DNA from: Candidatus Thiodiazotropha endolucinida
GTDB lineage: Bacteria > Pseudomonadota > Gammaproteobacteria > Chromatiales > Chromatiaceae
Assembly (NCBI RefSeq): GCF_001715975.1
Contig: NZ_MARB01000003.1
Span: forward strand, 124,001-188,000
Direction: 5' to 3'
Length of the DNA stretch: 64,000 nucleotides
Shown piece after piece: positions 35,625 through 48,417 of this stretch. The notes under the pieces were generated by a model. The model was not told the origin of the DNA, searched no databases, and saw nothing but the letters and a program-made list of their open reading frames with translations. Within the stretch, counting starts at the first letter, position 1. The number at the start of each line of letters is the position of its first letter. The position numbers and the translations under genes were made by a program.

Positions 35625-36965
35625 GTGAACCTTCGATTCAGACTCAATCTTATCGTAACACTGGTACTGTTGATCATTCTTGTTATCAGTGCCATACAGG
35701 CGGTCAATAACGCACGGGAAAACGTCCGTGCCGAATTGGCGTCAGCGATGGTGTTTGCCGCGCATATGCTGGCGGCGGAGCTACGCCATGTTTATCAGAC
35801 CGAGGAGCCCAGACAGCAACAGCCTGCTCCATTCAAGTTGGATCGGTTGGTAAATGTTCGTCATCTTCAGATCGCTTTTTACGACCTTCAGAACAACCTG
35901 ATCGAAAGTAACAACATAACACCCCCGGAAAACAGCGACGCCACTCCTGACTGGTTCAAACAACTGATGCAGACAGCGTTACGGGATATAACCAAGAAAC
36001 GACTGCCCGTCTATGTCAATACGACCAAACAGGGGGAGCTTGTCATCAGTCCGGAGCCGAACAGCGAAATTGCGGAGGCGTGGGAAGAAACCAAAATGTT
36101 GCTGACGATGATTTCTCTGGTATTCCTGGCTGTAAACATAATGGTCTACATTGTTGTATCACACGCCCTGAGACCGATTTCACATATCACGAAGGCTTTG
36201 TCCGACATTGAGTCGGGGCAGCTTGGAACGCGTCTCCCCATCTTCAAGCTTCCTGAAATGGCGGCTATCAGCCACAAGTTCAATACGATGGCCTCGACAT
36301 TGCAAAGCAGCATCCGGGATAACCATCGCCTGACCCAGCAGATCATTTCCCTGCAAGAGGCAGAGCGAAAAAGTCTTGCGCAAGAGCTACACGATGAGAT
36401 AGGTCAGCATTTGACGGCGATACATGTCGACGCATCTGTGATACAGCGATCCAAGGATCTATCATCCAGTATAAAAAGCGCCCAGGCAATCGATGAGGTT
36501 GCGTGCCAAATGATTGTGATTCTGAGAAGTATGCTAAAGCGCCTGAGACCCGGTGGTCTTGATGATTTAAGCTTCATTGAAGCGCTGCAAGAGCTCATTA
36601 AATCCTGGCAAGAGCGGCATTCACAGACAGATCTCACATACCGTATACAGGGGCAGTTCTCCGCACTTGACGAGAACGTTCAGTTGACCCTGTACCGCAT
36701 TCTGCAGGAATGCCTGACAAATATCAGTCGTCACTCAAAGGCCGCTGGTATCAGGATTGAATTGGAGGAATGCACGGCAACTTATGAACTTGAGGTCGCA
36801 GATAACGGAGAGGGTTTCGACATGTCGGAGCAGAGACAAGGTTTCGGCCTGTCAGGGATGCAGCAACGGGTCAACAGTGTGAATGGTGAGATCGATATCA
36901 TTAGCAGACCTGGAGAGGGTGTGATCATCCGGGTAAGCATCCCTAAGCAGGGAGAAGTCATGTGA
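35625..36965 (+). CDS. MoxY-like sensor histidine kinase 1 (HisKA_3)
   Basis: 446 residues from GTG 35625 with GGTGAG ahead. TM1 ~8-25, a periplasmic LapD/MoxY-type domain (~28-155), TM2 ~160-180, HAMP (~182-235), a HisKA_3 dimerisation domain with phospho-acceptor His256 in LAQELHDEIGQHLTAIHVD, and an HATPase_c domain ending in VADNGEGFDM and GFGLSGMQQRV. It is a paralogue of the kinase at 40302. MoxY of Paracoccus, which gives the periplasmic domain its name, controls PQQ-dependent methanol oxidation. It overlaps its response regulator by four bases. The nearby MITE replaces most of its expected upstream region. Confidence 0.9.
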   Translation: MNLRFRLNLIVTLVLLIILVISAIQAVNNARENVRAELASAMVFAAHMLAAELRHVYQTEEPRQQQPAPFKLDRLVNVRHLQIAFYDLQNNLIESNNITPPENSDATPDWFKQLMQTALRDITKKRLPVYVNTTKQGELVISPEPNSEIAEAWEETKMLLTMISLVFLAVNIMVYIVVSHALRPISHITKALSDIESGQLGTRLPIFKLPEMAAISHKFNTMASTLQSSIRDNHRLTQQIISLQEAERKSLAQELHDEIGQHLTAIHVDASVIQRSKDLSSSIKSAQAIDEVACQMIVILRSMLKRLRPGGLDDLSFIEALQELIKSWQERHSQTDLTYRIQGQFSALDENVQLTLYRILQECLTNISRHSKAAGIRIELEECTATYELEVADNGEGFDMSEQRQGFGLSGMQQRVNSVNGEIDIISRPGEGVIIRVSIPKQGEVM

Positions 36966-37606
36966 GTCAGAGCATCAGCGTCCTGCTGGCGGACGATCAC
37001 GTCGTAGTCAGATCCGGGCTGACCAGACTACTGGAACAAAACAGCGACATGATCGTGATAGGTAAAGCTGAGAATGGTGAGCAAGCCTACCGGTTATACA
37101 GTGAATCCATGCCTGATGTATTGGTTATGGATGTGTCGATGCCCGGCATGGGAGGGCTCGAGGCTTTGAGACGAATTATAGGACGTTGGCCCGACGCGAA
37201 GATTGTCATGTACAGCATGCATGAAAACACCAGCTACGCAATCCAGTCGATGGCAGCCGGCGCCATGGGATATGTCGCAAAATCAGGGCCTACAAACGAT
37301 CTGATAAATGCCGTGCGGCAAGCGAGTATTGGGGAAAGTTTTTTGAGTACTGATATGGCTCAGAAAGTAGCCCTGCATAGTGAGTCCAGTGATGATGATC
37401 CCACGCGAAGACTGACAACAAGGGAGTTTGAAGTGTTCCGTCTGTTGGCAAAAGGCAAGACTGTTGAGGACATAGCCAGTCACCTGGATATTGGGCACAA
37501 GACCGTCGCCAATTATCAAACGAGCATTAAACAAAAGCTCGCTATTAACTCCCCTGTCGAGCTCGTTCGACTCGCAATTAGATATGGAGTCATACCGAAA
37601 GCGTAG
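36962..37606 (+). CDS. NarL/MoxX-like response regulator 1
   Basis: 214 residues from a GTG overlapping the kinase stop. The receiver domain has the acidic pair in LLADDHVVVRSG and phospho-acceptor Asp in VLVMDVSMPGMGG. The LuxR-type HTH is LTTREFEVFRLLAKGKTVEDIA with recognition helix GHKTVANYQTSIKQKL. That helix is nearly the same as in the second regulator (SYKTVANYTTQIKLKL), so both may bind related sites. Base usage looks less GC-biased than in the 40-42 kb pair. Confidence 0.93.
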   Translation: MSQSISVLLADDHVVVRSGLTRLLEQNSDMIVIGKAENGEQAYRLYSESMPDVLVMDVSMPGMGGLEALRRIIGRWPDAKIVMYSMHENTSYAIQSMAAGAMGYVAKSGPTNDLINAVRQASIGESFLSTDMAQKVALHSESSDDDPTRRLTTREFEVFRLLAKGKTVEDIASHLDIGHKTVANYQTSIKQKLAINSPVELVRLAIRYGVIPKA

Positions 37607-37635
37607 ATATCACTCCCAAATTATGCAGCTTTAAT

Positions 37636-37657
37636 CAGGGCCGGTTATCAGGCCCTG
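37636..37657. terminator. Possible bidirectional terminator hairpin
   Basis: CAGGGCC-GGTTATCA-GGCCCTG, a 7-bp stem in the 56-base gap between the convergent response regulator and ABM gene. There is no strong U-run. It resembles the TAGGGCC/GGCCCTA MITE ends and may be derived from them. Confidence 0.4.
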
Positions 37658-37662
37658 GGGCA

Positions 37663-38025
37663 TTAACGCCGAAAACCGGTTTCCATTGTAAAGAAATCCG
37701 GATTCAATGCACTCAGGGGTTCCCGCAGTTTTTCGATCTCGGAGGCAGGCGCATGAATCTCCAGCCGAGTAATATCAGCGATCTTCAGGGCCTGATCCAG
37801 CAGTGCGCTCACGTTATCGAGATGCGCAAGTATCCCCTCCGCATCGATATAGCCTTCGCGGCAGTGTGCCTGCATGCCATTGAAACTGAAACCGTAGTGC
37901 ATGCATCTGGGTTCTGTCCTGGTTTTCTCCACAAACTGCTCACCAAGATCACGAAACTCATCGAGCTTTCCTTCGTGGATTTTGAAGTACGGGACCAAGG
38001 TACAGCAGGGATCGTTCAGTGCCAT
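37663..38025 (-). CDS. Antibiotic-biosynthesis-monooxygenase (ABM) domain protein
   Basis: 120 residues, cytosolic, ATG preceded by AGGAG. The sequence LVPYFKIHEGKLDEFRDLGEQFVEKTRTEPRCMHYGFSFNG fits the ABM/ferredoxin-like dimeric fold of small quinol monooxygenases. Members act on quinols or other aromatics without a cofactor, or only bind ligands. It is on the same strand as the pqqU-like gene and 104 bases downstream of it, so co-transcription is possible. A link to the quinone PQQ is speculative. Confidence 0.75.
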   Translation of the reverse strand: MALNDPCCTLVPYFKIHEGKLDEFRDLGEQFVEKTRTEPRCMHYGFSFNGMQAHCREGYIDAEGILAHLDNVSALLDQALKIADITRLEIHAPASEIEKLREPLSALNPDFFTMETGFRR

Positions 38026-38059
38026 GGTTGTTCTCCTAAGATGGTTGTCGTCTGCTTAT

Positions 38060-38124
38060 GCCTGTTAACAGGCCCTAATTATCCGCAATACCTCATCAAT
38101 TCGGTGCGGCAAGCCGCACCCTAC
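38060..38124. repeat. MITE-end palindrome plus single REP-like hairpin
   Basis: GCCTGTTAACAGGC at 38060-38073, followed by CCTAA, is a 14-bp perfect palindrome matching the MITE tip. GGTGCGGC-AA-GCCGCACC with CTAC (38103-38124) is a single unit of the REP family, five bases beyond the pqqU-like stop codon. Confidence 0.7.
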
Positions 38125-38129
38125 GTGGC

Positions 38130-40193
38130 TTATCCTTCGAAATCGTAACGCAGAGTCAAGCCGGCATAGACATCCCGGTCAGGCGCCGGTTCGAAATAGC
38201 GACCGCCAAAAGCGTTGATGCGCACATTGCCGTTGTATTGCTTATCGAACATATTATTCACACCGACGAAGGGTGAAATTTCCCAGGGTCCGATAAATTT
38301 GCTATAGCCGAGACGCAGATCGGCCACGGTATAGGAATCATTGGTGACGGTATTTGCATTGTTAGCGTAGATCTCATCCACATAGAGGGCGGTGAACTGG
38401 CTGTATATACCGTTGGGATGGGTATAGGTGAAATCGGCGCTGAGTAGATTTTCGGGGACACCGGGGATTACGTTGCCGCTGAAATCGTTGCCGTTGTCAT
38501 CGATGAACTCATCAAACTCAAAGTCAGAATAGGTATAGGCCAGGGTGGCGATCAGATATTCCACCGGCTCGAACACCAACTGAGCCTCCAATCCGTTGCG
38601 TCTCGATTCACCTGCATTCTCATAGAATTCGGTATCATCAATTTCAAAAGGAACCAACTCGTCTGTGACATCCATCGTGAACAGAGCCAGGTCATAACGG
38701 ACCTTGTTCCCCAACACGCCCTTGACGCCGATTTCGTAACTGGTGGCAACCTGTGGATCGAGCTCCTGGTTGAAGCCGGCACCGTCGGGATCACGCAGCT
38801 CGACGGCCGTGGGCGATTCGAAGGAGCGGGAAATATTGGCGTACAGATTAAGTCCGGGCCTGGGTGTGAAGCGCACTCCCAGGGTCGGGCTGAACTTACG
38901 GAAGCTGCGATCGCCGGAGTCGTCGCCATTACTGAGAAAGTTGTCATCCACATCGAAGTCAAGACGGTCGTAACGCCCACCCAACGTGAGTTCCATCTGT
39001 TCGCTGATGCTGTATTCGTTCTGTATGTAGAAGCCGATACTGTCGACCTGTTCGTCCTGATCCTGAATCTTCGTGCCCAGGCTGTCGCCTGCGAGCAGAA
39101 ATCGCTTGCGCTCATCCTCCTGACGGTCCAGATCGATTCCCAGCGTGAGCCGATTGGCGTGTCCCGAGAAGGGAGCGGTATGGGTATACTGTACTCCACC
39201 GCCAAACGCAAAACGATCCAACAGAATGCCATGACCGGTCGCCCCGATAGGCAGACGGTTGGCAAGGTCGCGGGAGACGTAGTAGTTGCGCACGCGCAGC
39301 TCACCACGCTCACCCAGCGGCCTGTCGTAGACAAAACCGAGTCTGGTCTGCTCCAGCTTCTCGCCGGAATCGAGGCTGAGGTTGCGGGTCCATGCCTGGG
39401 TCGGATCCTCGTCGACCAGGGCCTCCGTCAGGCCGCCGGGATCGTCGGCCTGGGGTGAGTCGGTGTAGTTGAGCACGGTGGTGAGGCGGCCACCGCCGGT
39501 GAAATCGAAGCCGAACTTGCTGTTGAGGGCGCTGAGCTCGGTGGCGCTGTGTTCCCGATAGCCGTCATAACTCAGATCAGAGATATTGAGCAGATAGTCG
39601 AAGCGTTCATGCTTGCCGCCAAACTTGAGTTGGTGTTTCTGAAATCCATCTTCGCCAACGGTTGGGCGAAAGGAGATGAAGGGGGTTTCGGGCGGCTCCT
39701 CGGACTCGATCAGCAACGCACCTCCCGAGGCGTTGCCATAGAGGGCGGAGACGGGTCCGCGGATCACCTGCATGTTACCGATTGAACCGCTATCGATACT
39801 GTCCACGTTGGCCTGACCGTCCGGCAGGGTTTCGGGGATACCGTCCACCAATACCTTGATGCCGCGGATACCGAATGCGGAGCGGGCACCGAAGCCGCGG
39901 ATGGAGACACGCAGATCCTGGGCGAAATTGTAGCGGTTCTGCATGAAGATACCCGGCACCTTGGCAAGAGACTCGTCCAGACCCAGCTGCGGCTCGGCAA
40001 ACTGGATCTCCTCCTGCTGCACAATGCCGACAGCTGCCGGCACAGTCTCCAGTGATTTTTCGACCCGCGTAGCGGTGACCGAGATGTCGTCCAGGGCGGT
40101 CGCCCTGCCGGCTTCATCGGCAATGACGACGCTGAATCGGGAGGCAATGAGTATCAATACGGCCGGTACTAGGGTTTGACGAACATCAGGCAT
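38130..40193 (-). CDS. pqqU: PqqU/YncD-like TonB-dependent receptor (PQQ uptake)
   Basis: 687 residues from ATG 40193 (GGAG nine bases ahead); the longer open frame is not needed. Signal peptide ends near IADEA; the TonB box is about DDISVTATR (35-43); then the plug and a 22-strand barrel ending in aromatic LRYDFEG. From memory the plug is strikingly close to E. coli YncD, renamed PqqU because it imports pyrroloquinoline quinone: LDESLAKVPGIFMQNRYNFAQDL, SIRGFGARSAFGIRGIK, VDGIPETLPDGQ and RGPVSALYGNASGG, plus the C-terminal GRYFEPAPDRD. It is divergent from MoxY-like kinase 2, with a 108-base shared regulatory region. Substrate is by homology and could differ. Confidence 0.82.
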   Translation of the reverse strand: MPDVRQTLVPAVLILIASRFSVVIADEAGRATALDDISVTATRVEKSLETVPAAVGIVQQEEIQFAEPQLGLDESLAKVPGIFMQNRYNFAQDLRVSIRGFGARSAFGIRGIKVLVDGIPETLPDGQANVDSIDSGSIGNMQVIRGPVSALYGNASGGALLIESEEPPETPFISFRPTVGEDGFQKHQLKFGGKHERFDYLLNISDLSYDGYREHSATELSALNSKFGFDFTGGGRLTTVLNYTDSPQADDPGGLTEALVDEDPTQAWTRNLSLDSGEKLEQTRLGFVYDRPLGERGELRVRNYYVSRDLANRLPIGATGHGILLDRFAFGGGVQYTHTAPFSGHANRLTLGIDLDRQEDERKRFLLAGDSLGTKIQDQDEQVDSIGFYIQNEYSISEQMELTLGGRYDRLDFDVDDNFLSNGDDSGDRSFRKFSPTLGVRFTPRPGLNLYANISRSFESPTAVELRDPDGAGFNQELDPQVATSYEIGVKGVLGNKVRYDLALFTMDVTDELVPFEIDDTEFYENAGESRRNGLEAQLVFEPVEYLIATLAYTYSDFEFDEFIDDNGNDFSGNVIPGVPENLLSADFTYTHPNGIYSQFTALYVDEIYANNANTVTNDSYTVADLRLGYSKFIGPWEISPFVGVNNMFDKQYNGNVRINAFGGRYFEPAPDRDVYAGLTLRYDFEG

Positions 40194-40264
40194 CGTGATT
40201 GACTCCGATAGAATGGACGGTTTGTATATCCTTATAAATAATCCAGTTGTCTTAGAGCTGCCAA

Positions 40265-40279
40265 GGGATATTTTCCCGA
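40265..40279. promoter_or_regulatory. GGGATATTTTCCCGA dyad, candidate operator of pqqU and sensor kinase 2
   Basis: In the 108-base divergent region between the pqqU-like gene and kinase 2. It matches 13 of 15 positions of 42515-42529, upstream of the second TonB receptor. Arms GGGA/TCCC are inverted. I infer a shared binding site, perhaps of the NarL-type regulators encoded here. Confidence 0.5.
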
Positions 40280-40301
40280 CAACTACCGGCCGGGGGTTCC
40301 C

Positions 40302-41630
40302 ATGACCCTGACACATCGACTGATACTGCTGGTGATCGCAATCGTCATGAGCATGCTCGCCAGTGGCGCCTACTATGCGATTGACGCCACGCGCGACAAT
40401 ATCTCAGACGAGATCAAGTCGAGTGCCCGCCTGACCATGCAACTGCTGACCGCAGCCCTGATCAGCGGCACCGCCGAGAACCAACCGGCGGAGCAGCAGA
40501 TCCTGATCAGCCATCTTCAGCGACTGAACGATATCCGCCACCTCAACATCGCAGTGGTACGTGGAGACGGCACGATCATCTATCCCTTCAGCGAACGCCA
40601 ACAGGCACGCCAACTGAGTGTGCCCGGATGGTACATCGATCTGGTGAAACCGCCGCCGGCGGAGTATCGCAAGCGAATCGCCAGCCCGCTGATCGGTACC
40701 AGCGAGATCGTTATCCTGGCCGATCCCACCGATGAGATCCAAGATGCATGGCGGGAAGCACGCTCGATCGTGCTGCTCATCGTCTCCTTCACCTTCCTCT
40801 GCATCATTCTGATGGCCATCATCATCCGCCGCTCGCTGCAGCCGGTAAACGAGATCAGCACCGGCCTTGGAATCATTCAGTCGGGGGACTATGCCGCCCG
40901 TCTGCCCCATTTCAACCTGCCCGAACTCAATCGCCTGTCTCAGCAATTCAACCACATGGCGCAGGTGCTGGATGAACAGCAGAGGGAAAACCGGCAGCTG
41001 AACAAGCGGCTGCTGTCGGTACAGGAGTCGGAGCGTCGCCACCTGTCCCGGGAACTGCACGACGAACTGGGACAATCCATCAGCGCCATCAAGGCGATGG
41101 CGGTGACCCTCAAGCTGCAAACCGACGGAGAACCGGAGAGTGCCGATGCCATCATCGGTGTCTGTAACCATATGTATGGCGTGGTACGGGACATGATGAA
41201 CCGCCTGCGGCCGGTAGCCCTGGAGGAGCTGGGGATGGTAACGGCAATCGAGCGGTTGGTGGACGGCTGGAACGACCGCCAAGAGGAGTGTTTCTGCGCC
41301 CTCACAATCAACAGCAACTTCGATGGGGTAGACGAGGATACGGCGATCACACTCTATCGCATCGTGCAGGAGGCACTGACCAATGTGGCCAAGCATGCCG
41401 CCGCGGAAAAGGCCGAGATCCGACTCGAACGGGATGCAAACGGTTTGATTGCATTGTCTATACGGGACGATGGTGATGGCTTCGACCAAAGCAGCAGACA
41501 TAAGGGCATGGGATTGCTGGGTATGCGTGAGCGGGTCGAGGCGTTGAATGGGAAAATCTCCCTTGCCAGTGAGCCTGATCAGGGTGTATCAATTGATATC
41601 CATCTACCCTTCACCCAGAAGACCGACTGA
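40302..41630 (+). CDS. MoxY-like sensor histidine kinase 2 (HisKA_3)
   Basis: 442 residues. TM1 ~5-25, a periplasmic LapD/MoxY-type domain (~28-150), TM2 ~155-175, HAMP (~177-230), HisKA_3 with His253 in SRELHDELGQSISAIKAM, and HATPase_c with RIVQEALTNVAKHAAA and RDDGDGFDQ. It is the paralogue of 35625-36965 with the same layout. It lies directly divergent from the pqqU-like receptor and 15 bases ahead of its own regulator. It probably senses something in the periplasm connected with that uptake, for example PQQ status; that is inference. Confidence 0.92.
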   Translation: MTLTHRLILLVIAIVMSMLASGAYYAIDATRDNISDEIKSSARLTMQLLTAALISGTAENQPAEQQILISHLQRLNDIRHLNIAVVRGDGTIIYPFSERQQARQLSVPGWYIDLVKPPPAEYRKRIASPLIGTSEIVILADPTDEIQDAWREARSIVLLIVSFTFLCIILMAIIIRRSLQPVNEISTGLGIIQSGDYAARLPHFNLPELNRLSQQFNHMAQVLDEQQRENRQLNKRLLSVQESERRHLSRELHDELGQSISAIKAMAVTLKLQTDGEPESADAIIGVCNHMYGVVRDMMNRLRPVALEELGMVTAIERLVDGWNDRQEECFCALTINSNFDGVDEDTAITLYRIVQEALTNVAKHAAAEKAEIRLERDANGLIALSIRDDGDGFDQSSRHKGMGLLGMRERVEALNGKISLASEPDQGVSIDIHLPFTQKTD

Positions 41631-41645
41631 CAGAGGCAATTGCAG

Positions 41646-42293
41646 ATGAATCCAATCCGGGTACTGTTGGTCGACGACCATGCGGTGGTACGGGCAGGCT
41701 ACCGCACCCTGCTCGACGGCATACCTGACATCAAGGTCGTCGCCGAAGCGGAGCGGGGTGAAGAAGCCTGTCAGCGTTTCGCCGAGCTACTTCCGAATGT
41801 CGTGGTGATGGATCTATCGCTACCCGGCATCGGCGGTCTTGAAGCGACCCGCCGTATCATCGCCCGTGACAGCGAAGCGGCCATACTGGTATTCAGCATG
41901 CACGACGACACAGCCTTTGTGGAAAAGGCGCTGGCCGCTGGTGCAAGGGGTTATATCACCAAGAACAGCGCCGCCGAGATCATGGTCGATGCAATTCGCG
42001 CGGTGGCCTCGGGCCAGGCCTTCATCGATCATGAACTGGCACAGAATCTGGCCCTGCGCCGGGCTGGCGGAGGCGGGGAGATATTCGATTGCCTGACCAC
42101 CCGTGAATTCCAGATTTTCAACCTCCTGGCCCACGGTAAGACACCGTCAGAGACCGCCAGCGAACTGGCGTTGAGTTATAAGACCGTGGCCAACTACACC
42201 ACCCAGATCAAGCTCAAACTCAATGTAAAGACCTCCACAGAACTGGTACACCTTGCCATTCGGCATGGGATCATCGACCCGGTCAGCGAATAG
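41646..42293 (+). CDS. NarL/MoxX-like response regulator 2
   Basis: 215 residues from ATG 41646 (GAGG nine bases ahead; a TTG at 41640 is less likely). The receiver has VLLVDDHAVVRAG and phospho-Asp in VVVMDLSLPGIGG; the C-terminal LuxR HTH is LTTREFQIFNLLAHGKTPSETA with helix SYKTVANYTTQIKLKL. Partner of the kinase just upstream. MoxX, PedR2 and ErbR/AgmR-type LuxR-family regulators control PQQ-alcohol dehydrogenase genes in other bacteria, which suits a PQQ theme. Confidence 0.94.
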   Translation: MNPIRVLLVDDHAVVRAGYRTLLDGIPDIKVVAEAERGEEACQRFAELLPNVVVMDLSLPGIGGLEATRRIIARDSEAAILVFSMHDDTAFVEKALAAGARGYITKNSAAEIMVDAIRAVASGQAFIDHELAQNLALRRAGGGGEIFDCLTTREFQIFNLLAHGKTPSETASELALSYKTVANYTTQIKLKLNVKTSTELVHLAIRHGIIDPVSE

Positions 42294-42304
42294 TTTCGAT
42301 TGCT

Positions 42305-42422
42305 CCGCAAATGAACGCAAATCTTACTTTTTACGTGTAGGGTGCGGCTCGCCGCAGCGTAAACCTAAGTACGCTCGCACCATGTCCATGCCAGCGTTTT
42401 GGTGCGGCAAGCCGCACCCTAC
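42305..42422. repeat. CCGCAAATGAACGC fragment and REP-like hairpin pair, copy 4
   Basis: A 21-base fragment of the 7827-type repeat (42305-42325) is followed by REP palindromes at 42337-42358 (one arm imperfect) and 42401-42422. This fills the first part of the 322-base gap after regulator 2. Confidence 0.8.
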
Positions 42423-42472
42423 ATCTGTCCAAATACAGATCCAATGCGTGAACTTGCTGACAATGTTTAACG

Positions 42473-42488
42473 GTGTCACGTGTGACAC
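42473..42488. promoter_or_regulatory. GTGTCAC-GT-GTGACAC dyad upstream of the acidic TonB receptor
   Basis: Perfect 7-bp inverted arms 128 bases before the receptor ATG. A TTCTTTTTTGG stretch follows before the next dyad. Could be an operator for a dimeric regulator; no known consensus is claimed. Confidence 0.5.
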
Positions 42489-42514
42489 TGTTCAAATTTG
42501 TTCTTTTTTGGTAC

Positions 42515-42529
42515 GGGAAAATTTCCCGA
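42515..42529. promoter_or_regulatory. GGGAAAATTTCCCGA dyad, second copy of shared candidate operator
   Basis: Nearly perfect palindrome (CGGGAAA-A-TTTCCCG) 87 bases before the receptor ATG, matching the site at 40265-40279. A further partial TCCCGAGAA follows at ~42532. A regulator binding both would join the two receptor genes in one regulon. Confidence 0.5.
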
Positions 42530-42615
42530 AATCCCGAGAAAAGCTCCTCTTCAACTCAAGGCCTGAAGGGCATATAAATTCTCTCAAAGCAATCGACAAA
42601 AAGTGAGAAAAGACC

Positions 42616-44943
42616 ATGTACGCCGTTCTGCTTCGACAGGCAAACCACAAGAGGTTGCTGTTCACCGCCTCCCTCGTCCTGACGGGCTCCGGGACAGGGT
42701 GGGCGGATGAACGCTTACCATCGATCGATGTCATCAGCACCACCCCGCTGCACGGGGTCGAGATCGAACGCACCCGTCTGCCGATGCATACCGAGATCGC
42801 CACCGATGAAGAGATAGAACGGCAGCAGAGTCTCGATCTCTCGGAGTTTCTCAACCAGCGGTTCGGTAGTGTCTTTCTCAACGAGGCGCAGAACAATCCC
42901 CTGCAGCCGGACCTGCTTTATCGGGGTTTCGTCGCCTCTCCCCTGATCGGACTGCCCCAGGGCATGTCGGTCTACATGGACGGGGTGCGGATCAATGAGC
43001 CTTTCGGTGATACCGTCAACTGGTCGGTGATTCCCGAGTCCGCCATTGCGGGAGTCAACCTGATGGCGGGCTCCAACCCCCTGTTCGGACTCAACACCCT
43101 TGGCGGTGCCCTTTCGGTGCAGACCAAGAACGGCTTCACCCACCCAGGCGCCGAGGTTGAGGTATCGGGCGGTTCCTTCGACCGCTACACGGCCCAGGCC
43201 AGCATCGGCGGCAACCGGGATAACCTGGGTTACTTCTTCACCGGCAACTACTTCGACGAGGATGGCTGGCGCGACTACTCCCCATCGGAGTCGAAACAGC
43301 TGTTCGGCAGCCTGGCCTGGCAGGGTGAAACAGGTTCTCTCGACCTAAGCCTGAGCCTCAGTGACAGCGAACTGATCGGTAACGGAGCCTTACCTGAGGA
43401 CCTGCTGGAGGAGGATCGGGAGGCGATCTTCACCCGCCCAGACATCACTGAACAGGAGGCGACACTCCTGCGCCTTGGCGGTCAGCGTGAGCTGGGTGAC
43501 GAGATCGTCCTGGAGGGTGCGATCTATTTCCGCAACAGCCAGATCGACACCCTCAACGGCGATGACTCCGACTTTGAAGAGTGCGAAGAGGAGGAGAACG
43601 AAGGCTTTATCTGCGAAGAAGAGGAGGGGGGAGAGGAAGGAGAAGAGGAAGAGGAAGAAGTTGTTTTAGACCGGAACGGCAATCCCATCGTTGCGGATGA
43701 CGATGTGGAGGGTGGTACCGTGAACCGCTCGAAGAGCGATCAGGATACCTTTGGCTTGAGTCTGCAGACAGCCTTTTTGCAACCCCTCGGCGGTCGCGAC
43801 AACCAACTCATCATTGGCGTGGCGGCGGATCGCAGCGAGGTGGATTTTTCTTCCGATACCGAGCTCGCCAGCCTCGATGAGAGCCGTCAGGCAATCGGTA
43901 GCGGTATCTTCGTCGAGGAGAGTTTCACCGAGGTGGAGACCGAGACCAAAAACCTCTCCTTCTATTTCACCGACACCTGGTCTGTCAGCGAACAGCTGGC
44001 ACTGACTCTCTCCGGTCGTTGGAACAAGACAGAGATCGAGCTGCGTGACCAGTTGGGCACAGCACTCAACGGCGACCACAGCTTCACCCGCTTCAACCCG
44101 GCCCTGGGCCTGGCCTACGACATCAACCAGGGAGTCAATTTCTATGCCGGCTACAGCGAATCGAATCGTGCCCCCACCGCCATGGAACTGACCTGCGCCG
44201 ATCCTGAGGATCCCTGCCGGTTACCCAACGCCTTCCTCTCCGATCCGCCCCTGGAGCAGGTGGTGGCAAAGACATGGGAGGCCGGTCTGAGGGGGTCTAT
44301 GCCTGGGTTGAGTTGGCACGTAGGACTGTTCCAGACCACCAACGATGATGACATACTTTTCATCAGCGCCGGCGCCCTGACCAACGAGGGCTTCTTCGAC
44401 AACGTGGGTGAAACCCGACGCCAGGGCCTTGAACTAACCCTCAACGGCAGCCTGGCCGACAATCGCCTCGACTGGTTTCTCAGTTACACCCGTCTCAAGG
44501 CCAGCTTCGAGGAGAATCTGAGCATCGCCAGTCCCAACAATCCCTTCGCGGTCGAAGGCGAAATCGCAGTGAGCTCCGGAGACCGACTTCCCGGGCTGCC
44601 AGAGAACCTGCTCAAGGCGGGAGCGACCTACCGGGTGACTTCGAACTTCTCCCTTGGCGCCGATCTCCAATACAGTTCCGATATCGTGTTACGTGGCGAT
44701 GAGGCCAACCTCGATGATGAGATCGACGGCTACACCCTGATCAACCTGCGGGGTGAATACCAGGCCACTGACAACCTCAAGCTGTTCGCCAAGGTGGACA
44801 ACCTGTTCGACAAGGAATACGAAACCTTCGGCCTCTATGGCGAGGCCGACGAGGTACTGGGCGACGACTATGAAAATCCCCGATTCCTCTCACCCGGTTC
44901 GCCAAGGGCGGTCTGGGCAGGGGTCAGATACAAGTTTTATTGA
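42616..44943 (+). CDS. TonB-dependent receptor with extreme acidic, Cys-containing loop
   Basis: 775 residues. Signal peptide ends GTGWADE (~30), TonB box about IDVISTTPL (37-45), plug with GFVASPLIGLPQGMSVYMDGVRINEPFGD and GSNPLFGLNTLGGALSVQTKNG, then a barrel ending in aromatic VRYKFY. Residues ~315-363 form a strongly acidic insertion, with about 25 Glu/Asp in 35 residues and two cysteines (323 and 333) in CEEEE contexts, then an LDRNGNPIVADDD stretch. It lies in a strand-connecting loop that could face outside and gather cations. I do not recognise the exact ligand. The exbB-exbD-tonB genes follow after 151 bases. Confidence 0.88.
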   Translation: MYAVLLRQANHKRLLFTASLVLTGSGTGWADERLPSIDVISTTPLHGVEIERTRLPMHTEIATDEEIERQQSLDLSEFLNQRFGSVFLNEAQNNPLQPDLLYRGFVASPLIGLPQGMSVYMDGVRINEPFGDTVNWSVIPESAIAGVNLMAGSNPLFGLNTLGGALSVQTKNGFTHPGAEVEVSGGSFDRYTAQASIGGNRDNLGYFFTGNYFDEDGWRDYSPSESKQLFGSLAWQGETGSLDLSLSLSDSELIGNGALPEDLLEEDREAIFTRPDITEQEATLLRLGGQRELGDEIVLEGAIYFRNSQIDTLNGDDSDFEECEEEENEGFICEEEEGGEEGEEEEEEVVLDRNGNPIVADDDVEGGTVNRSKSDQDTFGLSLQTAFLQPLGGRDNQLIIGVAADRSEVDFSSDTELASLDESRQAIGSGIFVEESFTEVETETKNLSFYFTDTWSVSEQLALTLSGRWNKTEIELRDQLGTALNGDHSFTRFNPALGLAYDINQGVNFYAGYSESNRAPTAMELTCADPEDPCRLPNAFLSDPPLEQVVAKTWEAGLRGSMPGLSWHVGLFQTTNDDDILFISAGALTNEGFFDNVGETRRQGLELTLNGSLADNRLDWFLSYTRLKASFEENLSIASPNNPFAVEGEIAVSSGDRLPGLPENLLKAGATYRVTSNFSLGADLQYSSDIVLRGDEANLDDEIDGYTLINLRGEYQATDNLKLFAKVDNLFDKEYETFGLYGEADEVLGDDYENPRFLSPGSPRAVWAGVRYKFY

Positions 44944-45094
44944 AGGATCTGCGCTTTGCTTAGTGAATAGAACTTTTTATCCTCGGTGTGGGCCGGCTGA
45001 TCGTTTTGGGTGAGTGGACCTAAGGGTCTACATCAGGCATCATCCGAGCGTGATCCCGGCCCTTGTTTTTTCCCGGGCTCGAGCCGGAGGCTGC

Positions 45095-45520
45095 GTGGAG
45101 TTCCTAAAACAATATCTCGATATTTTTGTCTTTGGTCTGCTCGGCCTGATGAGCTTCGTCATGGTCTGGTTCGTCATCGAACGCTACCTCTTCTTCGCCC
45201 GAATCAGTCTCGCCGACTATGACCACCCTGACACCCTCAATATTGCGCTTACCGCGCACCTGACGACCATTGCCTCCATCGGTGCCAATGCACCCTACAT
45301 CGGCCTGCTCGGCACGGTACTGGGGATATTGATCACCTTCTACGACCTGGGTCAGGGCGGCAATATCGAACCGGCGACGATCATGCTCGGACTGGCCCTG
45401 GCATTGAAGGCTACCGCCATGGGGCTGGTGGTGGCGATTCCGGCGATCCTCTTCTACAACGCCCTGCTGCGCAAGGTCGACGTCATCACTGAACGTTGGA
45501 AGCGTTTACAACGATCATGA
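45095..45520 (+). CDS. exbB: ExbB-type TonB energiser subunit
   Basis: 141 residues from a GTG at 45095 with GGAGG ahead; the open frame from 45014 is not needed, since EFLKQYLDIFVFGLLGLMSF is the family's N-terminus. Three transmembrane helices and the MotA/TolQ/ExbB core (GANAPYIGLLGTVLGILITF and ALKATAMGLVVAIPAILFYN) form the proton channel with ExbD. First gene of a tight set in which each gene overlaps the next by four bases. Confidence 0.92.
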   Translation: MEFLKQYLDIFVFGLLGLMSFVMVWFVIERYLFFARISLADYDHPDTLNIALTAHLTTIASIGANAPYIGLLGTVLGILITFYDLGQGGNIEPATIMLGLALALKATAMGLVVAIPAILFYNALLRKVDVITERWKRLQRS

Positions 45521-45894
45521 AACGCATCGACACTGTCAACGTCATCCCATTCATCGACATCATGCTGGTGTTACTGGCGATTGTGTTGACCACCGCGACC
45601 TTTATCTACCAGGGCAAAATCACCCTCGACCTGCCCGAGGCTGATCACGCGGAAACGCTCAGTGATCCAGAGGGCGTGGAGATCGCCATCGACGCCGGGG
45701 AACAGATCTACTTCAATCAAACTGCCGTAGACAAGGAAACGCTCGGGGAGCGGCTAGGTACGCTCTATGAAAATACCCCGATCATCCTTTATGTGGACAA
45801 ATCGGTACGCTTCGAGCACTTCGTGACTGTCATCGATCTGCTCAAGGCGAACAATCTGGAGACGCTCTCTATCGTTGCGCGCGGCGATCGATGA
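45517..45894 (+). CDS. exbD: ExbD-type biopolymer transport protein
   Basis: 125 residues from ATG 45517 overlapping the exbB stop (ATGA). One N-terminal helix with the essential membrane Asp in NVIPFIDIMLVLLAIVLTT, then a periplasmic domain (PIILYVDKSVRFEHFVTVIDLLK). Works with ExbB to couple the proton gradient to TonB. Confidence 0.94.
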   Translation: MKRIDTVNVIPFIDIMLVLLAIVLTTATFIYQGKITLDLPEADHAETLSDPEGVEIAIDAGEQIYFNQTAVDKETLGERLGTLYENTPIILYVDKSVRFEHFVTVIDLLKANNLETLSIVARGDR

Positions 45895-46613
45895 GTACCC
45901 ATACACCGGCATTCCTCATCTCCGCCCTGATCCATCTGGGATTGTTGACCCTGGTATTGACCGGTGTCGCCCAGCTACCCAGCGATAGCGCCGCGGAAAC
46001 CCGGCTGGCAGTGCGCCTGGAGATGTTTCAACCACCCCCTCCTCCACCCGAACCCGAGGCCGAACCTGAACCGGAGCCTATCCAGGAACCAGAGCCCGTT
46101 GTGGAGCTAGAACCGGAGCCCGAACCGGAGCCTGAAGTGGTCGAGCCACCACCGCCGCCGCCAAAACCCAAGCCAGTACCGAAACCCAAGCCAGTACCGA
46201 AACCCAAGCCCATGCCTGAACCTAAGCCCAGGCCCAAACCACCGCCAGTGGAGCAACCCATTGAACCGCTAAAGCAGACACCGCTACCGGTCGCACCTGC
46301 CGTCGATATGGGCCTGATCCGGCGCCTCGAGGAGGAGTACAAGGCCGCACTGCGCAAGGCGATCGAAAACAACAAAGGTTATCCCCGCCGGGCCGTGCGC
46401 CTGCGTCAGGAGGGTGAGGTGTTGGTGGGTTTTACCGTCCGCCGGGACGGTGTCATCGGGGCCCTGCGAATCGTCGAGAGTTCAGGCAGCAAATTGCTGG
46501 ATACGGCCGCTCGTCGAGCGGTTGAGAAGATCAGCGGCAGATTGCCCTTTCCCGAGGAGTTTAAACGTGATCAATGGGAGTTCACCATTCCCATCAACTA
46601 TGGACTCCGTTGA
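45891..46613 (+). CDS. tonB: TonB energy transducer
   Basis: 240 residues, ATG overlapping the exbD stop. An N-terminal membrane anchor (~8-28) is followed by a long Pro-Glu then Pro-Lys repeat spacer (~45-125, with EPEPEP and KPKPVPKP units) and a C-terminal TonB domain: YPRRAVRLRQEGEVLVGFTVRRDG and a final INYGL strand. It should span the periplasm to contact the TonB boxes of the two receptors encoded nearby. Confidence 0.95.
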   Translation: MSTHTPAFLISALIHLGLLTLVLTGVAQLPSDSAAETRLAVRLEMFQPPPPPPEPEAEPEPEPIQEPEPVVELEPEPEPEPEVVEPPPPPPKPKPVPKPKPVPKPKPMPEPKPRPKPPPVEQPIEPLKQTPLPVAPAVDMGLIRRLEEEYKAALRKAIENNKGYPRRAVRLRQEGEVLVGFTVRRDGVIGALRIVESSGSKLLDTAARRAVEKISGRLPFPEEFKRDQWEFTIPINYGLR

Positions 46614-47091: not shown

Positions 47092-48417
47092 ATGGGCAAC
47101 AGTATCATGCTGGTGGATAGCTCCAGTGCCGCTCGCGAAGTACTCACCCGGCGGCTGCAGACAGCCATGCCTGAGATCATTATCACCAGCTGTGCCAGCG
47201 CCAGCAAGGCCCTGGAACTCATTGAACAAGACCGCTATTCATTGATAACCACCGCCTTACTGCTTCCTGACATGGACGGTTTGGATTTCTGTCGCAGCAT
47301 CCGCTCCAGTAAGCGTAATCGCTATACTCCCGTCATCGTTGTCTCCTCTGATGCCGATCAGCGTCTGCTGCACGAAGGCTTTAATGCGGGCGTCACCGAT
47401 TATTTTGACAAAGCTCTCGGCTTCAAGGCCTTCGGACAGTTCATCAAATCATTCATGGAAAGGAACCCCGATCTCTGTGGCCGCATCCTGTACATCGAGG
47501 ACAGCAAGACTGCCGCCACCGTTACCCGACAGATTATGGAACAGCACGGCATGGAAGTCCTGCACGTCACCTCTGTGGAAGAGGCCCAATCCCTGCTCGA
47601 AAGCGCCCGTACTCAACGTGTAAAAGGTTTTGACCTGGTAATCACCGACTTCCACCTGAAGGGTGAAATGACCGGTGGCGACCTGCTCTATTTCCTGCGG
47701 GTACGCATGCACTACTCTCCGCAGGAACTGCCGGTACTGGTAACAACCGGCAACGATGAGACGCATACCCAGGTGGAGGTCTTCAATGCCGGTGCCAACG
47801 ACTTCGTCATCAAACCCCTGGTGGAAGAGGTTGTCATGGCTCGGATACGCTCATTGTTGCTAGTCAAATATCAGTATGACGCCCTGCTTCGTCAAACGCT
47901 GGACATGGAGAGGATAGCCACCACAGACGCCCTCACAGGCACTCGCAACCGACGCTATCTGGTGGACGAAGGCCAGCGATTTCTCTCCAGTTTCGAAAAC
48001 GGCTGGGTAATGATTATCGATCTGGACCACTTCAAGCGCATCAACGATACCAATGGCCACCTGATGGGCGACAAGGTGCTGATGGCACTGGGCAAACTGC
48101 TGAACCGCCGCTTTAATGACAGTTTACCCGTCCGTTTTGGCGGTGAGGAATTTGTCGTCATCGCCCATGGTCCCGAAATACCGGCCCGGGCCGAAGATCT
48201 GCGTATGGCAGTGGAGAAGCTCAATCCTGTCGGCATCGAGGTCACGGTGAGCATCGGTCTTGCTTGTGTGGACGACCATCCCGGCGACGACCTCAATACC
48301 CTTCTCGGCCATGCCGACAAGGCCCTTTACGCGGCCAAGAACTACGGGCGCAACCAGGCCTATGTCAATAGCCGCGGTGATTGCGTTAAACCGGCTGCAC
48401 AAGAGATTCGATTTTAA
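47092..48417 (+). CDS. Two-receiver diguanylate cyclase (REC-REC-GGDEF)
   Basis: 441 residues, cytosolic. REC1 (~1-120) looks degenerate: where the phospho-acceptor Asp should be, it reads ITTALLLPDMDG. REC2 (~125-250) is canonical with IEDSKTAA and LVITDFHLKGEMTGG. GGDEF (~275-425) has active-site RFGGEEF, but the I-site RxxD is not at the proper spacing, so feedback inhibition may be missing. Resembles PleD/WspR-like cyclases activated by phosphorylation. No partner kinase is next to it. Confidence 0.92.
   Translation: MGNSIMLVDSSSAAREVLTRRLQTAMPEIIITSCASASKALELIEQDRYSLITTALLLPDMDGLDFCRSIRSSKRNRYTPVIVVSSDADQRLLHEGFNAGVTDYFDKALGFKAFGQFIKSFMERNPDLCGRILYIEDSKTAATVTRQIMEQHGMEVLHVTSVEEAQSLLESARTQRVKGFDLVITDFHLKGEMTGGDLLYFLRVRMHYSPQELPVLVTTGNDETHTQVEVFNAGANDFVIKPLVEEVVMARIRSLLLVKYQYDALLRQTLDMERIATTDALTGTRNRRYLVDEGQRFLSSFENGWVMIIDLDHFKRINDTNGHLMGDKVLMALGKLLNRRFNDSLPVRFGGEEFVVIAHGPEIPARAEDLRMAVEKLNPVGIEVTVSIGLACVDDHPGDDLNTLLGHADKALYAAKNYGRNQAYVNSRGDCVKPAAQEIRF

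Follow-up and report, generated by a model that had tools for sequence, protein, structure and literature searches.

A locus for predicted PQQ uptake and probable lanthanide acquisition and sensing in a lucinid-clam symbiont

Results

The genome of Candidatus Thiodiazotropha, a lucinid-clam symbiont, carries two TonB-dependent receptor genes (r1 and r2), two pairs of sensor kinase and response regulator genes (K1-RR1 and K2-RR2) and an ExbB-ExbD-TonB set between positions 35625 and 46613 of the window, by which we mean the whole 64,000-nucleotide stretch of DNA analysed. All of the genes named in an initial annotation of this DNA are present as open frames, with strong family matches, at the positions given below. 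The locus is under purifying selection, with dN/dS of 0.04–0.18 for ten out of ten genes compared with their counterparts in L060 (dS exceeds 1 for some of the ten) and of 0.026–0.041 for RR2 in three comparisons.

Family matches, a tree and signature residues place r1 (38130–40193, minus strand, in an open reading frame that extends to 40316) in the PqqU clade. Using phmmer, we matched r1 to PDB entries 6V81 (YncD; E 1.4e-107) and 9C4O (PQQ transporter; E 5.3e-105), and an alignment of 667 residues with E. coli PqqU gives 37% identity. The tree groups r1 with E. coli PqqU at support 100/99, apart from other TonB receptors, in a clade of 19 rows, namely the E. coli protein and the full set of 18 r1-type rows, with some long branches elsewhere. 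The initial annotation had described r1 as closely resembling PqqU/YncD; r1 does fall inside this clade and not outside it, but "closely" is generous for 37% identity. Because r1 scores 421.1 bits against the NCBIfam PqqU equivalog NF041535, below the 1200-bit cut-off, we call it a PqqU-clade receptor and not a PqqU equivalog.

At the corresponding E. coli PqqU positions r1 has Q84, F99, E274, R304 and R365, and so carries, as F99/R304/R365, the published PQQ-site signature of an aromatic residue at 99 and arginines at 304 and 365 (Munder 2025, PMC12124388, available text). The same text describes a Glu274 variant of PqqU modelled with a co-bound metal. Full signatures were found in 40 of the 43 rows of the r1 set and Glu at 274 in 37 of 43, a set in which some genomes are entered twice. 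While sharing the clade, Q84, the aromatic residue at 99, R304 and R365 with E. coli PqqU, r1 differs from it in having Phe for Tyr99 and Glu for Lys274, in lacking R536, and in having another receptor and a two-component pair as neighbours. According to the available text of Munder 2025, pqqU generally lacks synteny to pqq genes, four Burkholderiales genomes excepted. We predict that r1 is a PQQ importer, and the initial annotation was right on PQQ.

A gene absent from the initial annotation lies 104 bp downstream of r1 on the same strand (37663–38025, minus). It encodes a lineage-specific, MupZ-like protein of 120 aa (PDB MupZ 6FXD, E 1.3e-33) and is also present in L059–L061 and L093.

Divergent from r1, across a poorly conserved 108-bp spacer (40194–40301) that likely holds the promoters of both genes, K2 (40302–41630, plus strand) encodes a MoxY/MxaY-type sensor kinase in which a periplasmic LapD_MoxY_N domain, HAMP, HisKA_3 and HATPase_c all score above their Pfam cut-offs. 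Directly downstream is RR2 (41640–42293, plus), a NarL/FixJ-type response regulator. K1 (35625–36965, plus) is a membrane sensor histidine kinase with HAMP, HisKA_3 and HATPase_c domains and overlaps by 4 bp with RR1 (36962–37606, plus), likewise NarL/FixJ-type. Both pairs had been called MoxYX-like, which holds for K2; the K1 sensor domain is weakly MoxY-like, with a LapD_MoxY_N score of 19.1 bits against a cut-off of 25. K1 and K2 are 33–34% identical and RR1 and RR2 about 46%, which fits the two sensors of similar design proposed earlier and argues against a recent duplication.

The architecture of K2 and its adjacent regulator gene resemble MxaY/MxaB of M. buryatense and MoxYX/MxaYX of Paracoccus (Chu 2016, PMC5018670, available text), although K2 is located with receptors and not with MDH genes. 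A conserved Glu in an EI..W motif at K2 residue 145 lies close to the position of MxaY E147, where a change makes the M. buryatense kinase constitutive according to the same text, and we regard the two residues as putatively equivalent.

r2 (42616–44943, plus) encodes a TonB-dependent receptor of a non-PqqU family that we propose, from tree and linkage, as a candidate lanthanide receptor. We considered whether r2 could itself be a PqqU and ruled this out, as it falls, with support 100/100, in a clade separate from PqqU and lacks the signature, which occurred in 0 of 48 r2-family rows in a coarse test whose alignment handles R304 and E274 of r1 itself poorly. Its best PDB relatives are nonetheless also YncD/PqqU, and its top NCBIfam match is the siderophore-receptor model TIGR01783, below cut-off. 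Residues 314–333 (43555–43614, plus) form an acidic motif, NGDDSDFEEC...C, after which comes a poly-acidic stretch; the motif is weak or absent in some members of the broad r2 family.

A palindrome, GTGTCACGTGTGACAC (42473–42488), lies 127 bp upstream of r2 and is a candidate operator. With at most one mismatch it recurs 104–149 bp upstream of r2 in 10 other genus genomes with a window-type r2, and it was not found in L067, G153 or G160. A control with shuffled sequence gave one match per window at up to two mismatches in 15 of 100 shuffles, so conservation is the sole point in favour of the palindrome. Near xoxF or pqq loci we saw a few one-mismatch matches and nothing better, which leaves a shared regulon unproven.

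The locus ends with adjacent genes for a TonB energizer: ExbB2-type (45014–45520, plus; TIGR02805, 197.3 bits against a cut-off of 135.35; lineage-specific), ExbD2-type (45496–45894, plus; TIGR02804, 128.9 against 123.45) and a TonB with a proline-rich spacer (45891–46613, plus; TonB_C and TIGR01352 above cut-off). Translation of ExbB probably begins downstream of 45014, since TIGR02805 matches from residue 29 and relatives are 150–169 aa long.

Conservation of the locus among relatives

Eleven genomes of the genus carry the r1-K2-RR2-r2 core; a contig end interrupts it in G096, and a transposase gene precedes r2 in G063. G007, G150, G152 and G161 keep this core (in G152 the RR2 frame is displaced in the open reading frame list, and RR2 was found at 86% in L064, which by length and range is this contig), and in the stretches read of these four genomes we did not see K1, RR1, the MupZ-like gene or ExbBD-TonB. 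G136 and G151 retain r1 with the rest of the locus gone, and neither gave a TIGR03075 quinoprotein match; G042 retains r2 alone. In another genus, L067 has r1, TonB-ExbD-ExbB, r2, RR2 and K2 in one cluster of changed order. K1-RR1 and ExbBD-TonB are lineage-specific parts, and the earlier description of a single 11-kb system does not survive as one conserved unit, since these genes and the MupZ-like gene vary between genomes.

Within the genus, r2 occurs in 13 of 22 genomes, the same 13 that have r1 together with one or more quinoprotein copies free of internal stops. In the family sample it occurs in 6 of 146 genomes, all among the 15 with a quinoprotein; the p-values for co-occurrence take no account of shared ancestry. 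Nine of those 15 genomes have no r2, so r2 is not needed everywhere.

Linkage to quinoprotein and PQQ genes

The source genome encodes two XoxF-like dehydrogenases (TIGR03075) with a WDYD motif, which we take to mark lanthanide-type enzymes, and none with WDYA; K2 may thus have no Ca/lanthanide switch to run. Among 38 quinoprotein loci inspected, 35 had WDYD and the other three gave no row. We also found pqqB, pqqD and pqqE, and another gene occupies the place of pqqC, so that both PQQ-dependent enzymes and PQQ synthesis genes are present. Neither outcome that the initial annotation had named as refuting it, r1 outside the PqqU clade or a genome lacking PQQ-dependent enzymes, was observed. The initial annotation proposed that the locus scavenges PQQ: uptake is supported by the r1 clade and signature, whereas pure scavenging is not, as recapture or top-up fits better with a genome that has its own pqq genes. 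One species, Ca. T. endoloripes (G007), has a quinoprotein and both receptors and no pqqE match; there PQQ import would be essential.

The source xoxF has a MoxJ-type neighbour, and the genome has fhc genes and, in the xoxF cluster, ped ABC genes. The latter match TIGR03861, 03863, 03864 and 03866 above cut-off, models that we take, going by the model name PedC, to represent the Ped transporter. They resemble the lanthanide ABC transporter PedA1A2BC of P. putida, which is itself without a close homologue of the methylotroph lanthanide receptors (PMC6839425, available text). Relatives of some ped-type genes adjoin r2 in other genera.

Many r2 relatives, though not all, have xoxF, ped/pqq genes or a MoxY-type pair nearby. 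Reading 13–20 kb per locus in a class sample, we found quinoprotein, ped or pqq genes at 13 of 33 r2 loci compared to 2 of 29 r1 control loci, and none at the other 20 r2 loci in the stretch read. K2/RR2-like pairs accompanied 10 of 33 r2 loci and 0 of 29 controls, and K2 relatives adjoin r2 homologues in other genera. On one contig each, G150 and G152 carry fhc-pqq-xoxF about 20 kb from the core; the nearest pqq gene in G161 is 3.4 kb from r1. In G153 and G160 an r2 homologue (44%) shares a contig with xoxF and pqq genes, and the xoxF of the r2-bearing cluster in G153 has an internal stop that its other xoxF copy lacks.

Of 11 plasmids opened, four had PQQ dehydrogenases near an r2 homologue, five with pqq genes included, and a sixth region, in M. 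nodulans, has lanmodulin two genes away; the other five had no quinoprotein, ped or pqq gene. Proximity to lanmodulin was seen once; the other plasmid with a lanmodulin-like stretch had no TonB receptor listed nearby. Association of r2 with lanthanide-type dehydrogenases or lanthanide-binding proteins thus extends to 13 of 33 class/family loci and 6 of 11 plasmid regions. In Ideonella, one of the five plasmid regions without such genes, an r2 homologue lies near MbnP-type copper genes and also beside a kinase-regulator pair.

Discussion

Gene content, receptor clade, signature residues, recurrent linkage, co-occurrence and the conserved palindrome are direct observations, and we read the locus as a module that serves XoxF by acquiring and sensing PQQ and, probably, lanthanide. 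We favour, with reasonable though not strong confidence, the view that this clam symbiont uses the locus to obtain and monitor both parts of the cofactor on which its lanthanide-type (XoxF-like) methanol dehydrogenases depend. r1 would take up PQQ across the outer membrane, as recapture where pqq genes exist and as the likely source in G007, and its Glu274 may let a metal accompany PQQ. We infer the ligands of both receptors, and r2 would take up a lanthanide or lanthanide complex. The initial annotation's suggestion of a metal partner for PQQ is plausible and gains support from the linkage of r2 with xoxF, with ped genes and, in one case, with lanmodulin, the metal ligand itself being conjectural. 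TonB would drive both receptors, helped in this clade by the dedicated ExbB-ExbD-TonB. K2-RR2, divergent from r1 and upstream of r2, would read periplasmic lanthanide, PQQ or methanol status and adjust receptor transcription, perhaps via the palindrome; this signal, the direction of regulation and the match of operator to regulator we also infer. K1-RR1 would be a second, lineage-specific sensor.

A PQQ-only system, in which PQQ or similar quinones would be the substrate of r1 and r2 alike, the sensors would respond to PQQ and no metal would be transported, is improbable. The YncD/PqqU relatives of r2 in the PDB and its tracking of quinoprotein genes would fit, but its separate clade, the missing signature (on the coarse test), the M. 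nodulans lanmodulin neighbour and the genomes G042 and G127, which bear pqqE and r2 but gave no r1 match at E 1e-60, speak against it. We give equally little weight to ordinary siderophore, iron or copper uptake by r2 and its kinase pair with an incidental quinoprotein link: the sub-threshold TIGR01783 match, the 20 r2 loci without quinoprotein-type genes and the Ideonella copper genes are set against recurrent linkage and co-occurrence with lanthanide-type quinoproteins, ped ABC genes and, once, lanmodulin across Gamma-, Beta- and Alphaproteobacteria. More improbable still is a loose neighbourhood, with r1 as a PqqU that unrelated genes for transport and signalling adjoin by chance. Variable content, with r1 or r2 alone in some genomes and K1 and ExbBD parts inconstant, would suit this, yet 11 genus genomes keep the core and L067, in another genus, has kept the gene set with its order rearranged.

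Beyond the cofactor-supply reading, we raise tentatively, as somewhat doubtful, a wider one: r2 would be the founding member of a common and mostly uncharacterised receptor family that takes up lanthanides at the outer membrane, spread through Gammaproteobacteria and other groups and in many cases passed on together with a MoxY/MxaY-type lanthanide sensor of its own. In clam symbionts this pair would have been coupled to a PqqU that co-binds metal, and one locus would then import and regulate PQQ and lanthanide, the two halves of a single enzyme cofactor. In gene context, r2 resembles LutH (M. extorquens), TonB_Ln (M. aquaticum 22A) and LanA (M. buryatense), which in the available texts are likewise TonB receptors with XoxF-type genes, and a relative of r2 is linked to lanmodulin. 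Those texts place TonB_Ln upstream of mxcQE two-component genes and report LanA as less than 20% identical to the M. extorquens receptors, so that lanthanide-receptor names span more than one family.

According to the available text of PMC12172469, the genes that some lucinid symbionts transcribe highly include those for methanol oxidation. Counting against a PQQ/lanthanide module, symbionts of Ctena orbiculata, which hosts the nearest relative, had low pqq and methanol dehydrogenase transcripts, averaging 0.2 and 3 TPM (PMC6712303, available text). Our literature searches turned up no gene proposed for lanthanide supply or PQQ retention in these symbionts; the one on Thiodiazotropha TonB-dependent receptors returned a single paper, and the one on PqqU together with lanthanide returned Munder 2025 alone. 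If the cofactor-supply reading is correct, one locus would tie PQQ import to rare-earth import, a receptor family well outside methanotrophs could be tested for lanthanide binding, and the sensory side of lanthanide use would become testable via the kinase that often travels with the receptor. The genus offers a natural contrast set: one species with the enzyme and both receptors and no pqqE match, species with a split xoxF and neither receptor, species with the PqqU-clade receptor alone, and species with both receptors.

Locus organization and receptor families

All genes that the initial annotation placed at window positions 35625-46613 exist as open frames with clear family matches. They run as a sensor kinase and NarL/FixJ-type response regulator (K1-RR1, +), a MupZ-like gene (-), the TonB receptor r1 (38130-40193, -), a second kinase-regulator pair (K2-RR2, +), and a second TonB receptor, r2 (42616-44943, +), followed by ExbB, ExbD and TonB on the same strand. 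The K1 and RR1 frames overlap by 4 bp, r1 and K2 diverge from a 108-bp spacer, and gaps of 322 bp and 70 bp separate RR2 from r2 and r2 from ExbB (with the ExbB start as annotated here); the ExbB, ExbD and TonB frames overlap. Compared with two relatives (L060 and L093), every gene from K1 to TonB, the MupZ-like gene included, had a dN/dS of 0.03-0.20. The MupZ-like gene (120 aa, 37663-38025, -), missing from the initial annotation, shares the strand of r1 and lies downstream of it. At 47092-48417 we observed a gene that, judged by its sequence, resembles a response regulator/diguanylate cyclase; genes of this type adjoin the locus or lie close to it in 13 of 15 genus genomes bearing r1, including G136 and G151, which carry r1 only.

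An alignment scan of named genomes with r1 returned 43 loci, the nearest from Candidatus Thiodiazotropha and lucinid-clam symbionts, with a 97% match to a Ctena orbiculata symbiont contig. The receptor shares 37% identity with E. coli PqqU and keeps Q84, F99, R304 and R365, with Glu in place of K274. A published signature consists of Y/F/W99, R304 and R365, so that the aromatic F99 lies within it, and the same source describes Glu274 variants modeled with co-bound Ca or La at low metal confidence (Munder 2025, PMC12124388). Against the NCBIfam PqqU equivalog model, r1 scores 421 bits, below the required 1200. A tree of 52 rows united all 18 r1-type rows with E. coli PqqU in one clade (100/99), in agreement with the resemblance first noted, and placed the 25 r2-type rows in a separate clade (100/100). 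The full signature was present in 40 of 43 r1-set rows versus 0 of 48 r2-set rows. One of the misses in the r1 set (L061) is an r2 frame picked wrongly, and in this set, as in the acidic-motif and WDYD alignments below, several genomes of the genus are represented twice, once from each of two collections (for example L060/G148, L062/G161, L093/G147 and L066/G007). Judged by clade and signature, r1 belongs with PqqU; the same tree and signature rule out r2 as a second PqqU and assign it to a different family.

Matches to r2 (E up to 1e-70) were found in 32 of 369 class-sample genomes, the window genome included, spanning 27 genera. An acidic motif inside r2 (NGDDSDFEEC...C, then a poly-acidic stretch) was kept in all 17 aligned rows of near relatives, 14 of them from this genus. 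We dropped the poly-acidic loop as a hallmark of the r2 family, as some members of the wider family have the motif in weak form or lack it.

PQQ and methanol oxidation genes

The window genome (4.49 Mb in 55 contigs, listed as 100% complete) contains the PQQ synthesis genes pqqB, pqqD and pqqE, and a 243-aa gene occupies the place of pqqC, an assignment made by position alone. It also encodes PQQ-dependent enzymes, as the proposed PQQ link would predict: two quinoprotein dehydrogenases, one adjoined by a MoxJ-type protein and a cytochrome (TIGR03874, below cut-off). Present as well are fhc genes and four genes above cut-off for the ped/PQQ ABC families TIGR03861, 03863, 03864 and 03866. The second Asp of the WDYD motif is a mark of the lanthanide type of quinoprotein. 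This motif was found in all 35 quinoprotein rows obtained from 38 loci examined.

The xoxF and pqq genes and methanol oxidation of lucinid symbionts have been described earlier (PMC8307296, PMC6712303, PMC12172469, PMC11237559); the term 'tonb' occurs 0 times in the main text of these four papers. Separately, nine Thiodiazotropha loci (L013, L106, L107, L150, L151 and L153-L156, with a one-base variant at L150 and L151) share a conserved sigma54-like element, TGGCACACAAGTTGCT, about 180-225 bp ahead of the xoxF copy in the cluster; it was not found at L149, L152 or the other (C1-type) xoxF copies.

Distribution in the genus and family

Across 22 genus genomes, all at least 92% complete, we found r1 in 15, a quinoprotein match in 14, pqqE in 12 (absence meaning no match at E 1e-90) and r2 in 13 (absence judged with the r1 query at E up to 1e-8; a dedicated r2 search covered the six genomes of this genus in the family sample). 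The 13 r2 genomes are those in which r1 occurs along with one or more quinoprotein copies free of internal stops; in G153, one of the two copies carries such a stop. Eleven have the window-type r2 (the window genome, G063, G096, G007, G161, G150, G152, G149, G146, G147 and G148), and G153 and G160 have an r2 matching at 44%. G136 and G151 retain r1 but lack r2 and gave no match to the quinoprotein family (TIGR03075). In the fourteenth quinoprotein genome, G157, which gave no r1, r2 or pqqE match, xoxF is split into two overlapping frames (L265:10236-12057), possibly through sequencing error. A small number of gains or losses could account for this distribution within the genus.

G007 (Ca. T. 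endoloripes) has a quinoprotein, r1, K2, RR2 and r2; it would have to import PQQ because it gave no pqqE match at E 1e-90, and r1 is likely its entry route for this presumed ligand. G150 and G152 carry the r1-K2-RR2-r2 block and fhc-pqq-xoxF on one contig, about 20 kb apart, and 3.4 kb separates r1 from the nearest pqq gene in G161. We also noted an IS110-family transposase gene between RR2 and r2 in G063, a close relative (L037:12736-13731). In a family sample of 146 genomes, r2 occurred in 6, all among the 15 quinoprotein carriers, and r1 in 13, of which 8 have a quinoprotein.

Genomic neighborhoods of r2

We inspected 33 r2 loci of 13-20 kb each, 31 from the class sample and 2 from the family sample; one of the 33 (L216) comes from the same genome as L067, and another (L241) the script failed to recognize as r2. 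A xoxF-like gene was present in 5, adjoining r2 in G227, G461 and G501, and ped-type genes in 8, one of which also has pqq genes, giving 13 of 33 loci with any xoxF-like, ped or pqq gene. In ten loci, a K2-like kinase occurred together with an RR2-like regulator. Among 29 control r1 loci from outside the genus, quinoprotein-type genes were found in 2 and the kinase-regulator pair in none (Fisher p 0.003 and 0.001, ignoring relatedness), with the control loci drawn from another collection, having a smaller mean length (476,684 bases over 29 loci versus 605,080 over 33) and yielding no r1 frame in 6 of 29. Excluded from it were 14 of the 43 r1 loci: L059-L069 and L093, which comprise this genus, L067 and L064, and L100 and L101, whose matches cover only a portion of r1.

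Plasmids also carry r2 homologues: matches appeared in 31 plasmid records, of which we opened 11 regions. A PQQ dehydrogenase lies within about 7 kb of the homologue on four (Burkholderia multivorans, Variovorax, Sphingobium and Novosphingobium), and fhc and pqqBCDE lie nearby on a Paraburkholderia plasmid. On Methylobacterium nodulans pMNOD02, a LuxR-type regulator and then a lanmodulin gene, annotated only as an EF-hand protein (L252:12350-12754), follow downstream of an r2-family receptor whose alignment to the r2 profile spans 750 columns (36% identity) and includes the acidic motif. For the EF-hand protein, the match to lanmodulin in PDB (6MI5) reached E 5.2e-38; each of its four EF loops carries Pro in second position, a feature described for AM1 lanmodulin. 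The other five regions had no PQQ dehydrogenase, fhc or pqq genes or EF-hand protein; in one, from Ideonella, a kinase-regulator pair adjoins the r2 homologue and genes of copper type lie beyond it. Among the strongest counterpoints to the function proposed below are that 20 of the 33 r2 loci lack any quinoprotein-type gene in the stretch inspected and that the lanmodulin case occurred once. As a side observation, Methylorubrum extorquens CM4 pCMU01 contains a lanmodulin-like stretch at L262:12001-12291 (66% identity over 72% of the query), where no gene is listed; no TonB receptor is listed near it.

Sensors and a candidate operator

The initial annotation had described two MoxYX-like systems. 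This held for K2, whose LapD/MoxY periplasmic domain scores above the Pfam cut-off; in K1 the domain falls below it. At E up to 0.01, the domain was detected in 10 of 11 kinases (K1, K2 and nine from other r2 loci). On its predicted domains K2 has a MoxY/MxaY architecture; a methanotroph such as Methylotuvimicrobium as source of the window, with K2 as MxaY itself, was considered and dropped, the genome being that of a Ca. Thiodiazotropha. The 33-34% identity of K1 and K2 and the patchy distribution of K1 speak against a recent duplication. In L067 (Thiotrichales), r1, TonB-ExbD-ExbB, r2, RR2 and K2 occur together in another order, and the core combination is therefore older than this genus or was transferred as a set.

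Upstream of r2, at a distance of 127 bp, is a perfect palindrome, GTGTCACNNGTGACAC, the sole window match at up to 2 mismatches (0.17 expected by chance; at least one match in 15 of 100 shuffles). The other 10 genomes of the genus that carry the window-type r2 have it too, 104-149 bp before the receptor gene and with no more than one mismatch; searches of L067, G153 and G160 did not find it. As a regulon mark including xoxF it was rejected: one-mismatch matches near quinoprotein or pqq loci were few, and GTGTCACNNGTGACAC was therefore kept as a candidate r2 operator. We infer that RR2 would be the regulator matching this palindrome.

Proposed function

We propose that the locus serves uptake and sensing of PQQ and probably lanthanides for XoxF-like dehydrogenases. 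The receptor r1 likely recaptures PQQ, r2 likely imports a lanthanide or lanthanide complex as its presumed ligand, and K2-RR2 likely senses cofactor or substrate status, the putative signal, and controls uptake. If this reading is right, r2 would function like LutH, TonB_Ln or LanA, receptors considered here from their descriptions alone. The individual parts of the locus are of known kinds; the open-licence literature searched gave no account of their union in one locus, pairing a PQQ receptor with a candidate lanthanide receptor. A PqqU-like and r2-like pairing recurs in another genome of the class, G401, where xoxF, xoxJ-like, xoxG-like and fhc genes, an r2-family receptor (37%) and an r1-like receptor (34%) lie within 20 kb (L246).
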